This document shows positions 12,167 through 16,217 of a DNA stretch of 37,084 bases, in pieces. How positions within the stretch are numbered: position 1 is the stretch's first letter; every line of letters starts with the position of its first letter. A program made the position numbers and the translations under genes. The stretch is from Candidatus Binatia bacterium (GTDB lineage: Bacteria; Desulfobacterota; Binatia; Bin18), in assembly GCA_022824615.1 (NCBI GenBank), contig JAJDZM010000163.1, positions 1 to 37,084 of the forward strand. Reading direction: 5' to 3'. The notes beneath the pieces are model-generated. The model did no database searches and had not been told where the DNA came from. It saw only the letters and a list, made by a program, of their open reading frames with translations.

Positions 12167-13798
12167 TCAGACGGCGTCCGGCACATGTCTGACCAACTCC
12201 ACTGTAAGCCGAATATCCGGCTTCAGCAGCCCGCTCACATAGCAGCCGCGCTTGGCCCGTTCGAGGAGGGTCTGCAAGTCCTGCTCCGAAGCCGCACTCC
12301 ACACTGCCAGGGTTAAGGCGATCTCTTTCACCTGACCCTTTGGCGGTGCTTTGGCGTGTCCGGCTATCCGTTCAATGGTAATCTTGCGGCGTCGGGCGGC
12401 TGCTTTGAAGGCAATCGTCATGCAGGAGAGCAGGGCGCCAAGAAAGGCCGTGACCGGGTCCGGGCCGGTATCCTCTCCGCCGTCGCTCGCCGGCTCATCC
12501 AGGCTCCAGACATGACCGTGGCTCCGCACCTGAACGGCATAGCGACCGCCAGCCGACACCGAACGAACTTCTCGTTTGCCCAGGGCTTCTTGGGGGCTGG
12601 GGGTTGGGGATTGGGGGTTGGGGATTTCCAAGAGGGACTTTGAGTCAAGGTCCTCCAACGCCTCTTTGAGACCCTGACTCAACCGGGAGGCCGCCACTCC
12701 GTCCGCTACCCGATGGTCATAGGCAATGCTGAGCGTCAGCATCGGTCGGGCGACAATCTGCCCGTTATGCACGACCGGCCGCTCTTCAACTGCGCCCACA
12801 AAAACGAGGATGGGTTCACCCAGATTGATAACCGGCGTTCCAGCCCGGATGCCAAACATGCCGAGGTTGGAGACGGTCAGACTGGCCGGCCCCCTATCCG
12901 CCGGTTGCAACTGCCCCGCGCGAGCAGCTTCAACCAGCCGCTGCCTTTCCCGCACGAGCTGGGTGATGGACAGGTCATGCGCTCCACGGATGACCGGGAC
13001 CAGCAGGCCGCGCGGTGAGTCAACGGCAAAGCCGATATCCACGCCGTCATAGAGAATAAGCTCTTCGTTTTCGACCGTGCCGTTGAGGTCGGGCAGTCCG
13101 GCCAGCACGCGCGCCGCGGCGGATAAAATCAGATCGTTGAGCGTCAACTCGGAAATGTCCGTTCTGAGTCGCTCCCGGATCGCTTGCAGCCCGCTGGCAT
13201 CGACATCGACCATCTGGACAATATGCGGAATGGTCTGCCAGGCTGCCTGGACCCGGCGAGCGGCGGCCTTCCGAATGCCGGTCAGAGGGTGGCGTTCGCG
13301 CTCGGTCCGCCGGGACGCAATATGAGCGGCGGCCGCTGGCGGCTGATCGGCAACCGCGTTCTCCGCAGCCCGCTCCACATCAGCCGCGGAAAGTACACTA
13401 TCCGCAGATGACGGCGTCAGGGTCGAAAGATCGATACCGTGTTCAGCAGCCAGTCGCTTGGCTTTCGGCGAGGCGAGGATTCGCCCTGGACGGGACGCTT
13501 TTTGCGGTTGAACGACTGGTTCGGCGGCTGGTGGAGCGGAGGCGGTGCCCGCCTGGACCGGAGCGTCGCCAATTTCGGCAATAACGGTATGAATCGGAAC
13601 CTCTTCGCCTTCTGGGACCACAACGTGGAGCGTTCCACTTGCTGTTGCCTCCAGATCGTACGTGGCCTTGTCCGTCTCTACCGTAACGAGCAAGTCGCCG
13701 GCAGCGACGCGCTCGCCGTCTTTACGGTGCCACTGCATAACCACACCCTCGGTCATGGCCTGGCCGAGTTTGGGCATTAAGACTTTGGTATTTTGCAC
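12167..13798 (-). CDS. 2-oxoacid dehydrogenase E2 (dihydrolipoamide acyltransferase) fused to an OsmC domain
   Basis: A 543-residue two-enzyme fusion. Residues 1-80 form a lipoyl domain with the lipoylated Lys44 in ETDKATY. About 105-145 is a peripheral subunit-binding domain (RILASPKAKRLAAEHGIDLS). About 170-390 is the CoA acyltransferase domain with DHRVADG. Residues ~391-402 are a Pro/Ser/Asn linker (PNPQSPTPSPQ) encoded by a G-rich repeat found twice more in this operon. From ~410 to 543 lies an OsmC/Ohr domain, with the Glu of WSLDEP, the peroxidatic Cys in LLSCMTIAF and the second Cys in GCYVSGLL. E2 transfers acyl groups to CoA; OsmC proteins reduce organic hydroperoxides and are known to use lipoyl groups as reductant. 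The fusion is therefore chemically plausible. No E3 gene is present. Confidence 0.92.
   Translation of the reverse strand: MQNTKVLMPKLGQAMTEGVVMQWHRKDGERVAAGDLLVTVETDKATYDLEATASGTLHVVVPEGEEVPIHTVIAEIGDAPVQAGTASAPPAAEPVVQPQKASRPGRILASPKAKRLAAEHGIDLSTLTPSSADSVLSAADVERAAENAVADQPPAAAAHIASRRTERERHPLTGIRKAAARRVQAAWQTIPHIVQMVDVDASGLQAIRERLRTDISELTLNDLILSAAARVLAGLPDLNGTVENEELILYDGVDIGFAVDSPRGLLVPVIRGAHDLSITQLVRERQRLVEAARAGQLQPADRGPASLTVSNLGMFGIRAGTPVINLGEPILVFVGAVEERPVVHNGQIVARPMLTLSIAYDHRVADGVAASRLSQGLKEALEDLDSKSLLEIPNPQSPTPSPQEALGKREVRSVSAGGRYAVQVRSHGHVWSLDEPASDGGEDTGPDPVTAFLGALLSCMTIAFKAAARRRKITIERIAGHAKAPPKGQVKEIALTLAVWSAASEQDLQTLLERAKRGCYVSGLLKPDIRLTVELVRHVPDAV
12591..12626. repeat. G-rich repeat copy A, inside the E2-OsmC coding sequence
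   Basis: A run of G3-5 tracts separated by TT, ATT or CT (core GGGGATTGGGGGTTGGGG on the plus strand). It is in frame on the minus strand and encodes the NPQSPTPSP linker between E2 and OsmC. It closely matches the two copies flanking the four-helix-bundle gene about 2.2-2.6 kb away. Confidence 0.8.
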
Positions 13799-13805
13799 GC
13801 GCGCC

Positions 13806-14777
13806 TCAGTCCACGAGATCTTTTACCGCCCGGTAAATATCGTCCACCGAAGGAACGATGGCATCGACCAGATGCTGGCTGGTCGGAATCGGCACATCGG
13901 GAATGGCCAGGCGCTTGAACGGTTTGTCCAGATAAGGCAGGGCCTCTTCCACGAGCAGGGCCCCGATCTCCGCCCCAACCCCGAGCGTGCGATAGGCCTC
14001 TTCAACCACAATACAGGCCCCGGTCTTTTTGACCGACTCGATAATGGTTTCGCGGTCAAACGGATTCAGGGTGCGCGGATCGACGATCTCGACCTCGATA
14101 CCCTCCTGGCTCAGCCGCTCCGCCGCCGCGAGCGCACGGCGCAACATGCCCTGCCAGGCCACAAGCGTCACGGCTTCGCCCTCGCGTCGGACGACCGCTT
14201 TGCCAAAAGGTGTCAGGACCTCTCCGTCCGGCACCTCACCCCGCATTTGATACAGCAGTTTATGCTCAAAATAGATGACCGGGTTATCCAGTCGAATCGC
14301 CTGCTTGAGCAGACCCTTGGCGTCTTCCGGCGTTGAGGGCACGGCGCACAACAGGCCGGGAGCATGCATGATAAAGGCTTCGGGGCAGGCCGAATGCTCT
14401 GGCCCAAAGCCCGAGCCGCCCGAGGGGGCGCGCACCACCAGCGGAATTGTATGCGCCCCGCCGTGCATATAGCGCCACATGCCGGCCTTAAAAAAAATTT
14501 CATCACCCGCGGTGATAACGAAATCGGCAAACTGGAGTTCCACCACCGGCCGCAGGCCCATCGAGGCCGCACCCACACCGGCCCCGACCATCACGCTCTC
14601 GGAGATAGGCGTATCGAACACACGGTCCGGGCCAAACTTTTCAAGCAGCCCGTCGGTGACTTTGAAAATGCCGCCCCAGACCGCAACATCCTGGCCGTAC
14701 AGAATCACGTTTTCGTCGCGCTGCATTTCTTCGGCGAGCGCATCGTTAATCGCCTGACTATAGGTCCGTGTGGGCAT
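13806..14777 (-). CDS. 2-oxoacid dehydrogenase E1 component, beta subunit
   Basis: A 323-residue transketolase-like beta subunit of a pyruvate/acetoin/branched-chain 2-oxoacid dehydrogenase. It opens TRTYSQAINDALAEEMQRDE, followed by GQDVAVWGGIFKVTDGL, TPISESVMVGAGVGAASMG, and RPVVELQFADFV. The C-terminal domain contains IVDPRTLNPFDRETI and VVEEAYRTLGVGAEI. The frame opens at a GTG (14783), but CAGGAGTGTTT places the true start at the ATG 14777. With E1 alpha it decarboxylates the 2-oxoacid on thiamine diphosphate. Its 5' end is overlapped by 20 bases by the four-helix-bundle gene, and the gene ends 7 bases before E2-OsmC starts. Confidence 0.93.
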   Translation of the reverse strand: MPTRTYSQAINDALAEEMQRDENVILYGQDVAVWGGIFKVTDGLLEKFGPDRVFDTPISESVMVGAGVGAASMGLRPVVELQFADFVITAGDEIFFKAGMWRYMHGGAHTIPLVVRAPSGGSGFGPEHSACPEAFIMHAPGLLCAVPSTPEDAKGLLKQAIRLDNPVIYFEHKLLYQMRGEVPDGEVLTPFGKAVVRREGEAVTLVAWQGMLRRALAAAERLSQEGIEVEIVDPRTLNPFDRETIIESVKKTGACIVVEEAYRTLGVGAEIGALLVEEALPYLDKPFKRLAIPDVPIPTSQHLVDAIVPSVDDIYRAVKDLVD

Positions 14778-15201
14778 AAACACTCCTGGGTAGGGATTGG
14801 GTTTTGGGGGCTGGGGATTGGGGGTTGGAGCCTTTGAGCAGGGTGGTTCGTAATGCTGAGAGTTGTCTGGCTAATATGTCAGACTGGTCAAGGAGACGGG
14901 CGTAGCCTTCAGAGGAGCAGTACTGGAGACGTTTGGCGATCTCCAGTTGTGTTTGCAGTTCAGCCAAAGATGCCCGAGCGACCGAGAGATGACGGAGGTA
15001 TTCTTTCCGCGAATCACGCGTATGACCTTCCGCAATGTTTGAGGGAACCGAAACGGCGGCCCGCTGCATTTGGCTCGCCAAGCCATACATCTCATGTTTA
15101 GGGAACTCCCGTGTCAACCGATAGACTTGTTCCACTAGGTCCATTCCTCCCTGCCACACCCGGAGATCACGAAAACCACTGATCTTTGCAGTCTTCTCCA
15201 T
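14758..15201 (-). CDS. Four-helix-bundle protein (S23/IVP-like), inserted in the dehydrogenase operon
   Basis: A 147-residue four-helix-bundle protein of the family typified by 23S rRNA intervening-sequence proteins. Its signature is plain: FRDLRVWQGGMDLVEQVYRL, then AVSVPSNIAEGHTRDSRKEY and LRHLSVARASLAELQTQLEIA. The frame extends to 15222; the ATG at 15201 is preferred because a GGGAGG site just upstream fits it. That site is at the inner edge of repeat C. The last ~20 residues (NPQSPAPKTQSLP...) are coded by repeat B and continue across the E1 beta start. It is the only gene here unrelated to the complex. Its role is unknown; relatives are thought to bind RNA or basic partners (also Avd in retroelements). 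It is likely a small mobile unit. Confidence 0.85.
   Translation of the reverse strand: MEKTAKISGFRDLRVWQGGMDLVEQVYRLTREFPKHEMYGLASQMQRAAVSVPSNIAEGHTRDSRKEYLRHLSVARASLAELQTQLEIAKRLQYCSSEGYARLLDQSDILARQLSALRTTLLKGSNPQSPAPKTQSLPRSVYAHTDL
14788..14829. repeat. G-rich repeat copy B (left flank of the four-helix-bundle unit)
   Basis: G-rich on the plus strand: GGGATTGGGTTTTGGGGG followed by CTGGGGATTGGGGGTTGG. It lies between the four-helix-bundle gene and the E1 beta ribosome binding site and is read as part of the former. It is in inverted orientation to copy C. CTCCT lies immediately outside at 14783-14787, and the same five bases are found outside copy C. Confidence 0.8.
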
Positions 15202-15205
15202 ATCT

Positions 15206-15239
15206 CCCTCCCTAACCCCCAACCCCTAATCCCCAGCCC
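15206..15239. repeat. G-rich repeat copy C (right flank of the four-helix-bundle unit)
   Basis: C-rich on the plus strand, so the G-rich side (GGGGCTGGGGATTAGGGG and more) is on the minus strand. It lies immediately after the E1 alpha stop and ends at the ribosome binding site of the four-helix-bundle gene. With copy B it forms inverted flanks around a unit of about 450 bases. CTCCT follows at 15240-15244, possibly a target duplication, but AGGAG on the other strand is also a ribosome-binding motif. Confidence 0.8.
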
Positions 15240-15244
15240 CTCCT

Positions 15245-16192
15245 CTACGCATATACATCTTGCAGGGCGACTTCCGGCGCGAGTAGCGGGGCCGCGCGCA
15301 TGGCTGCCACGGCCGCTTCGACCTGTTGGTCTGCGTCGGCCTGTATGTCATCCACGTCCGTCTGCGTCAGGATTCCCCGGTCGCACAGGGTCTGTTGCAG
15401 CTTCGGTAGGGGATCTTTTTCCGCCACCGTGTCGATGTCCGCCCGGTATTCCTGCTGGTCAGCCACATAATGCCCTTGCAGCCGTGTCACCTTGGCTTCA
15501 ATCAGCGTCGGGCCGTGGCCGGCCCGCGCTCGCGCCACGGCCTGTTCCATGACTTCGTACACCGCCACCGGATCGTTCCCGTCAACCACCACGCCGGGAA
15601 CGTTATAGCCTGCGGCCCGGTCGGCGATATTCTCGACCGCGGTCGAACGGCTGGTCGGCATGGAAATCGCGAAGCCGTTATTCTCACAAAAATAGATGCA
15701 GGGCAGTTTCTGCACCGCGGCCCAGTTGAGCGCCTCGTGGAACGGGCCCCGGTTCGCCGTCCCGTCTCCAAAGAAGTAAGTCACGACGGTGTCCGGCTGC
15801 TTGCGCTTGAGCGCCATGCCCACGCCAACCGAGACAACGAAGCTGCCACCCAAAGTCCCGCTCTCACCCAGAATGCCCTTTGGCACGTCCACGACGTGCA
15901 TCACCCCGCCCTTGCCCCGGCTGGTCGCGCCCTCCTTGCCGGCCATATCGGCCAGCATATCGGCCAGGCTCACTCCCCGGGCGATCATATACGCCACGCC
16001 GCGATGGCCGTACAGGATATAGTCGTCGGGCCGCAGAGCCTCGATGGCAGCGATCTGCGCTACCTCCTGACCGGCACCAACGTGCAACGCCGGCGGGAGT
16101 TCGCCGGCCATGGCCAGCTCGACGATTTTGGCCTCAAAGCGCCGTGCCAACTCCGAGGTCTTATACACTCTGACGAGTTGTTCCTGGTCCAT
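15245..16192 (-). CDS. 2-oxoacid dehydrogenase E1 component, alpha subunit
   Basis: A 315-residue thiamine-diphosphate-binding alpha subunit (AcoA/PdhA type). Seen are GHRGVAYMIARGVSLADMLA, the SRGKGGVMHVVD loop, the TPP motif GDGTANRGPFHEALN with the later ENNGFAISM, and a phosphorylation-loop-like TSRSTAVENIADR. The frame opens at 16210, but AAAAGGGGAG lies four bases before the ATG at 16192, giving MDQEQLVRVYKT. Substrate could be pyruvate, acetoin or another small 2-oxoacid; the sequence does not decide. In the operon it follows the SDR gene by 26 bases and is separated from its partner E1 beta by the inserted four-helix-bundle gene. Confidence 0.93.
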   Translation of the reverse strand: MDQEQLVRVYKTSELARRFEAKIVELAMAGELPPALHVGAGQEVAQIAAIEALRPDDYILYGHRGVAYMIARGVSLADMLADMAGKEGATSRGKGGVMHVVDVPKGILGESGTLGGSFVVSVGVGMALKRKQPDTVVTYFFGDGTANRGPFHEALNWAAVQKLPCIYFCENNGFAISMPTSRSTAVENIADRAAGYNVPGVVVDGNDPVAVYEVMEQAVARARAGHGPTLIEAKVTRLQGHYVADQQEYRADIDTVAEKDPLPKLQQTLCDRGILTQTDVDDIQADADQQVEAAVAAMRAAPLLAPEVALQDVYA

Positions 16193-16217
16193 AGGCTCCC
16201 CTTTTTTCATGGTCAGC

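Follow-up and report, generated by a model that had tools for sequence, protein, structure and literature searches.

One described unit that resembles the one studied here is the intervening sequence (IVS) of the Coxiella burnetii 23S rRNA, which is reported to be 428 nt long, to contain an S23p frame with two or three tandem heptamers ahead of it, and to have a 28-bp terminal stem, with cutting by RNase III (PMC4990558). Arrays of G-rich heptamers of the GGGGA(C/T)T type have been described from Xanthomonas and Nostoc (PMC4692102), and a survey of cas loci includes 18 IVP genes, one of them between cmr2 and cmr3, in its list of genes with a CRISPR-Cas-associated function (PMC3936711). The protein family PF05635 has been found to resemble Avd, the accessory protein of diversity-generating retroelements (PMC10053308), and Coxiella also harbors QMITE1 and QMITE2, which are MITEs, that is, small inverted-repeat units (PMC5896051). 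A link of S23/IVP genes outside rRNA with inverted heptamer arrays was not found in the open-access literature, in a search that took in few subscription papers and no preprints.

The window, which is the whole stretch of 37,084 nucleotides analyzed here from a Candidatus Binatia bacterium, contains a unit of about 450 bp (14788-15240, minus strand) in which an S23/IVP gene of the PF05635 family is flanked by inverted G-rich 7-bp arrays, and this unit separates E1 alpha from E1 beta, whose products belong to one enzyme (Table 1). The IVP frame is the sole coding content of the unit, and no transposase is found inside it. An alternative start of the frame, a TTG at 15222, appears in the ORF listing. 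The protein matched 23S_rRNA_IVP in Pfam with an E value of 1.7e-38 and TIGR02436 (four helix bundle protein) in NCBIfam; the bAvd model also matched it (7.1e-07), under the cut-off of that model, and the solved structures 2GSC (E 2e-27) and 2RLD are related to it.

Table 1. Positions in the window of the IVP unit, its neighbors and a related gene-less array
Feature	Position	Strand	Remarks
S23/IVP (four-helix-bundle) gene	14758..15201	-	ATG 15201, stop 14758, 147 aa; Pfam, NCBIfam
Upstream arm, 7-bp array, G-rich in sense orientation	15206..15240	-	directly 5' of the ATG
Downstream arm, inverted array copy, C-rich on the sense strand	14788..14829	-	translated as the IVP C-terminus
E1 alpha (dehydrogenase subunit), 5' neighbor of the unit	15245..16210	-	E1_dh, E 6.3e-72
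E1 beta (dehydrogenase subunit), 3' neighbor of the unit	13806..14783	-	Transket_pyr + Transketolase_C
CTCCT (plus strand), read in sense orientation as the AGGAG that precedes E1 beta	14783..14787	-	also present where relatives lack the gene
Second CTCCT, flanked by the E1 alpha stop and the upstream arm	15240..15244	.	sequence
Solo array of the GGGGATT-type repeat	12592..12623	.	joins the E2 and OsmC parts of coding region 12167-13798 (-) in frame

The arms consist of tandem copies of GGGGATT and close variants, a 7-bp G-rich unit as in STRR-like G-rich heptamer repeats. With up to 3 mismatches, the window contains 6 matches to GGGGCTGGGGATTGGGG, compared with an expectation of 0.30, and none of 100 shuffles reached 6 matches. 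The stretches 14807-14828 and 15219-15240, which lie 390 nt apart, form an inverted match of 22 nt with 95% complementarity; together with the Pfam match, this confirmed the claim of an earlier note that a four-helix-bundle gene with G-rich inverted flanks lies between E1 alpha and E1 beta. The same note had read one repeat as coding for the C-terminus of the protein, and the downstream arm is indeed translated, as GSNPQSPAPKTQSLPR, the frame stopping inside the start of E1 beta. The inverted-flank score of the unit, which measures the match of 160 bp upstream against 200 bp downstream, was 39, while among 230 control places elsewhere in the window a score of 28 was never reached and a score of 24 was reached once. 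In the predicted RNA fold of the unit, the two arms pair with each other, and the predicted energy was -183.1 kcal/mol compared with a mean of -158.1 (sd 6.35; z -3.93) for shuffles, none of which was as low in 100.

For a wider comparison, the score was calculated for 161 distinct IVP genes, which were left of 174 matches after 13 had been dropped for an incomplete profile match, short flanks or duplication, and which form two sets, 78 genes from Binatia-class relatives and 83 from genome contigs. In the family search, 84 of the 92 places over the search cut-off were taken in (27 + 55 + 2), the other 8 being fragments, and 16 of the 19 places below it were left out. With a score cut-off of 28, which was chosen after the score series had been seen, matched arms were found for 57 of the 78 Binatia-class genes compared with 2 of 312 swapped pairs, and for 61 of the 83 genome-contig genes compared with 68 of 332 swapped pairs; the latter control was inflated because the 80 loci of that set belong mostly to Flavobacterium and its kin. 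When one gene was kept per cluster of 55% identity, the counts were 24 of 38 against 0 of 228 swapped, and swaps within one genome reached the cut-off in 8 of 254 cases. Among plasmid copies, all 10 scored (out of 32 matching records; nine cyanobacterial and one from Gemmatirosa, and with the gene end placed by hand at one unannotated locus, L262) reached 28, compared with 5 of 90 swaps. Other frames in the E1 alpha loci reached it in 3 of 75 cases, two of which were IVP copies at the E1 junction and one of which (L056) was not. The remaining 21 Binatia-class genes and 22 genome-contig genes were below 28. The titles of the loci at or above the cut-off name Bacteroidota, Acidobacteria, Omnitrophota, Zixibacteria, Chloroflexi/Anaerolineales, Planctomycetota, Vreelandella (Halomonas kin), Fibrobacteres, Ignavibacteria and Oscillospiraceae. 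The IVP gene with inverted repeat arms is therefore a recurring unit and a general class.

What the arms have in common is a rule of arrangement. The autocorrelation of the upstream flanks peaks at lags of 7, 8 and 14, and the gene is without these peaks. In the 118 armed elements the best period was 7 in 44, 8 in 42, another value in 5 and unclear in the rest, and G exceeded C in the upstream arm of 103 (47 of the 57 in the Binatia set). The repeat unit, mostly 7-8 bp, is common to both arms of an element and differs between elements. The shared rule is thus an inverted order, a short period and a G-richer first strand, with the letters free. The window genome illustrates this, since each of the four IVP genes found there by the family search has inverted short tandem repeats of its own sequence: GGGGATT in the window (score 39), AGTGGNN on contig C196 (25), TTGGGTC with a spacing of 8-9 bp on contig C202 (46) and an AATTA-type repeat on contig C123 (25), so that two of the four are below 28. 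Other copies with the same flanks, which the earlier note had named as support, were accordingly not among the other three IVP genes of this genome. A comparison of arm likeness with protein likeness was set aside because upstream flanks include host gene ends in copies at the same site, and an arm-to-arm matrix was used instead; for the C202-type unit, whose four copies represent a single site within one genus, this matrix failed to separate own from other copies.

A second type of unit possibly exists. Among the loci listed, nine of family f11 (L082, L142, L123, L077, L151, L153, L156, L163 and L167) have a TTGACA-like stretch directly upstream of the IVP gene, and the ends of L082 are long and inverted but do not consist of short tandem repeats.

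The history of the site can be followed in relatives, for which we label the window genome G000, the seven genomes of its genus G000-G006, and compare 16 genomes of the family in all. An E1 alpha orthologue (at least 69%) was found in 12 of the 16; G013 has only a fragment, and G007, G010 and G015 have none so close. Sorted by eye, the 12 orthologous junctions comprise four full ones, one from which the gene is deleted inside the unit (G006, with a gap of 93 bp that retains both ends of the unit), four with one arm left (G001, G002, G004 and G011) and three with no repeat (G005, G008 and G012), so that an intact IVP gene is missing at 8 of the 12. At the full junctions E1 alpha and E1 beta are separated by 464 bp (G000), 454 bp (G003), 535 bp (G014) and 655 bp (G009), and the copy in G009 has one TAA inside the IVP frame. 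A clean empty site with a single CTCCT, which the earlier note had suggested looking for, was not present among the 12, nor was the situation observed in which all relatives carry the gene at this place without the repeats. The four full copies form one clade from three genera in a tree of the 161 IVP proteins, which was built from few columns (98/87; 98% of bootstrap trees), and the arm repeat differs by genus, being GGGGATT in g1, GGCAACA in g6 and GGGCTCT in g4. The upstream and downstream arms of these junction copies match their own partners with scores of 39, 28, 31 and 33, while between genera the scores are at most 18. This could reflect a change of both arms following a single insertion, or the return of one IVP lineage to the site with new arms.

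Taken with the recurrence of the unit elsewhere, these observations make it probable, in our view, that the unit in the window represents an old copy of a small selfish element with a wide distribution, the mRNA counterpart of the 23S rRNA intervening sequence. In such an element the S23/IVP gene would lie in the loop of a hairpin whose arms are the two arrays, inverted relative to each other, of a short tandem repeat of mostly 7-8 bp. Once transcribed, these arms would pair into a long stem with the gene in the loop, and an RNase III-type enzyme could cut this stem; insertion between co-transcribed genes would therefore cost little. The IVP protein may act on nucleic acid armed with such hairpins and help the hairpins to spread or to be renewed, while the cutting and copying of DNA would be carried out by enzymes coded elsewhere.

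Arrays also occur without a gene. In the window genome they are found at many places, and their number across the genus follows the IVP element with the same repeat. Hairpins of the G-rich unit were found at 3 places in G000, 4 in G003, 2 in G004, 1 in G002 and none in G001, G005 and G006, and the IVP element with a G-rich arm is present in G000 and G003. Similarly, AGTGGNN hairpins were found at 4 places each in G000 and G006, at 2 in G001 and at none in the other four genomes of the genus, and G000 and G006 have the IVP element with an AGTGGNN arm. For TTGGGTC arrays, the raw matches, which overlap and include the arms, numbered 40 in G000, 95 in G001, 46 in G002 and 47 in G004, which are carriers, and 12 in G003, 7 in G005 and 1 in G006, which are non-carriers. 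The first two patterns were written from arms already seen in G000, whereas the outcomes for TTGGGTC and GGCAACN were predicted beforehand. The reversed-pattern controls gave 0 in all seven genomes for the first three patterns, and carriers outrank non-carriers each time, with chance probabilities of 1 in 21 (G-rich), 1 in 21 (AGTGGNN) and 1 in 35 (TTGGGTC) by ranks that ignore ancestry. As predicted, GGCAACN arrays gave 16 matches in G014, the junction arm included, and none of the 15 other family genomes gave more than 4. G005, which has no IVP match, has no hairpins of the G-rich or AGTGGNN type. For all four repeats tried, solo arrays were thus commonest where an IVP element carries that repeat. 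Arrays without a matching IVP element do exist, namely the 12 TTGGGTC matches in G003, the two AGTGG hairpins in G001, and the one (G002) and two (G004) G-rich hairpins. The earlier note had counted repeats at places with no link to four-helix-bundle genes against its proposal; this was seen in part, since gene-less arrays do occur, but their numbers follow the presence of an IVP element with the same repeat.

Several details of solo arrays were observed in passing. The solo array of the window joins E2 and OsmC in frame and is absent in G004 and G005; in G002 the E2-OsmC array has seven bases, one 7-bp unit, fewer than in G001, and the frame is broken in G002. In G008, three of the four GGCAAC matches are GGCAACTGGCAACTGG, the complement of the CAGTTGC-type arm of one IVP unit of that genome (L069).

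A wider reading, which we put forward only tentatively, is that IVP (S23/Avd-like) proteins are trans-acting partners of the orphan 7-8 bp tandem repeats dispersed over many bacterial genomes, so that IVP units and gene-less hairpins would be one mobile system. Its ends would be a rule (inverted, of short period, with the G-richer strand first) and not a fixed sequence, they would be rewritable on both sides, and the 23S rRNA IVS would be the rRNA branch of the system. Alternatively, the hairpins came first, that is, arrays and palindromes spread by slippage, template switching or a REP-type transposase acting in trans, and IVP genes landed in their loops as passengers. This explanation is rather unlikely, but solo hairpins and arrays are common, and the junction arms are of a type found elsewhere in the same genome, as the GGCAAC counts of G014 illustrate. 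Furthermore, over 78 Binatia-class genomes, Y1 transposase goes with IVP genes, being present in 17 of 27 genomes with an IVP gene and in 14 of 51 without (p 0.003), and the number of IVP genes is correlated with that of Y1 (REP-type) transposases (Spearman 0.51). However, this statistic ignores ancestry, and within the genus of the window genome Y1 transposase occurs in 1 of 7 genomes while IVP genes occur in 6 of 7. In addition, one IVP clade has three arm types at one site, which would need repeated landing of the gene there. Reverse transcriptase was also considered as a partner enzyme; it was found in 15 of 27 IVP genomes and 20 of 51 others (p 0.23; Spearman of the counts 0.23, p 0.045), an association too weak to build on. 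The single RVT_1 match of the window genome is on contig C177. A search of viral contigs gave 49 pattern stretches, none of which encodes a relative by tblastn.

A settled host gene, with the arms serving as a regulatory hairpin of the operon in attenuation or message stability, would account for other features of the unit. Between G000 and G003 the IVP frame has a dN of 0.066 and a dS of 0.874 over 98 codons, which indicates constraint, the RNA fold is stronger than that of shuffles, and both neighbors run with the IVP gene in 33 of the 54 armed Binatia elements with clear neighbors. In the other 21 of the 54, however, the neighbors are not both co-directional, and IVP units adjoin unrelated genes in many genomes. 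The losses at the E1 junction, including the inner stop in one of four full copies, also speak against a settled role, and we regard this explanation as improbable.

A mobile unit whose ends are recognized through quadruplex-forming G-tracts, and whose target duplication is CTCCT, is hardly credible as a general mechanism. The G-tracts of both arms do fit the quadruplex motif and CTCCT is present at both ends, but a quadruplex (G4) motif lies upstream in only 11 of the 118 armed elements, every one of them among the 57 of the Binatia-class set; the shared feature is the inverted short-period array. One CTCCT is the ribosome site of E1 beta, which is kept where the gene is absent and so is no evidence of a target duplication. 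From the proposal of the earlier note, then, what is supported is a recurring unit of gene and arms that splits co-operonic genes elsewhere as well and whose gene is missing from the E1 junction in relatives, while quadruplex ends and CTCCT as a target duplication are not supported.

The edges of the units were compared in 21 chosen pairs of IVP genes. In 15 of them the likeness is confined to the gene, whether or not it takes in the arms, and in the other 6, which are the same site, it extends into the flanks. Two of the 15 pairs, each within one genome, are alike from about -59 to +59 of the profile ends (L122/L131, 71.6%) and from about -60 to +84 (L137/L140, 73.8%), and at these levels of likeness they are not fresh copies. 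Neither an exact-edged insertion event nor a target duplication was found among the IVP copies and junctions compared, and none of the 40 IVP loci tested with Rfam lies in rRNA, the search giving four tRNAs only. The units were seen at various sites. On plasmids, IVP genes with inverted arms of their own lie between two ribonucleotide reductase genes in Nostoc (L256), between cas6 and cas4 in Anabaena sp. 90 (L259) and between cas10 and cmr3 in Picosynechococcus (L265). In G000 (C196, L002 1-1736) and G006 (L250), a DNA methylase gene contains an IVP unit with AGTGG arms and keeps its frame open through the unit, and the methylase gene has solo AGTGG hairpins in frame at different places in the two genomes.

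If the unit is a selfish element as preferred here, two separate puzzles would be joined, namely the S23/IVP genes, which have been known from 23S rRNA for a long time but have no assigned function, and the short tandem repeats, equally familiar from Nostoc and Xanthomonas, which have no assigned origin. It would also be necessary to re-examine the annotation of IVP genes as functional partners where they lie inside cas and other operons. Mobile ends that change their sequence yet stay matched would differ from those of ordinary transposons, and since IVP resembles Avd, a copying mechanism can be tested.

Compared with known systems, the unit in the window is most readily set beside the Coxiella 23S IVS, with which, as that element is described, it shares an S23p gene (about 110-150 codons), a unit length of about 430 bp and stem-forming inverted ends, and the units studied here also resemble it in having tandem heptamers in varying number ahead of the frame and a decay-prone frame (PMC4990558). 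The Coxiella IVS, however, sits in helix 45 of the 23S rRNA, whereas the window unit lies between two protein genes, and it is because of this site outside rRNA that the window unit is not a member of the 23S rRNA IVS family; furthermore, RNase III cutting has been demonstrated for the Coxiella IVS (PMC4990558), whereas for the window unit such cutting is a proposal. The heptamer arrays of Xanthomonas are reported to occur often in convergent (inverted) pairs, in 70 and 75 cases, like the arms here, but the Xanthomonas and Nostoc arrays are described there as gene-less and as generally not associated with mobile elements, whereas here the arrays flank an IVP gene, and most arms here are not G4-forming, unlike those G-rich heptamers (PMC4692102). 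The IVP genes between cas10 and cmr3 and between cas6 and cas4 are like those listed in cas loci (PMC3936711), and their arms suggest a general invasion of operons rather than a CRISPR-Cas-associated function. In diversity-generating retroelements Avd stands beside a reverse transcriptase, while no reverse transcriptase was found on the window contig (C55). The palindromic elements of Rickettsia are small inverted-repeat units, some of them in frame inside genes. Such in-frame palindromic elements and MITEs have a fixed family-wide sequence, whereas the arms described here are short tandem repeats that vary by element, and one form of the unit bears a gene.
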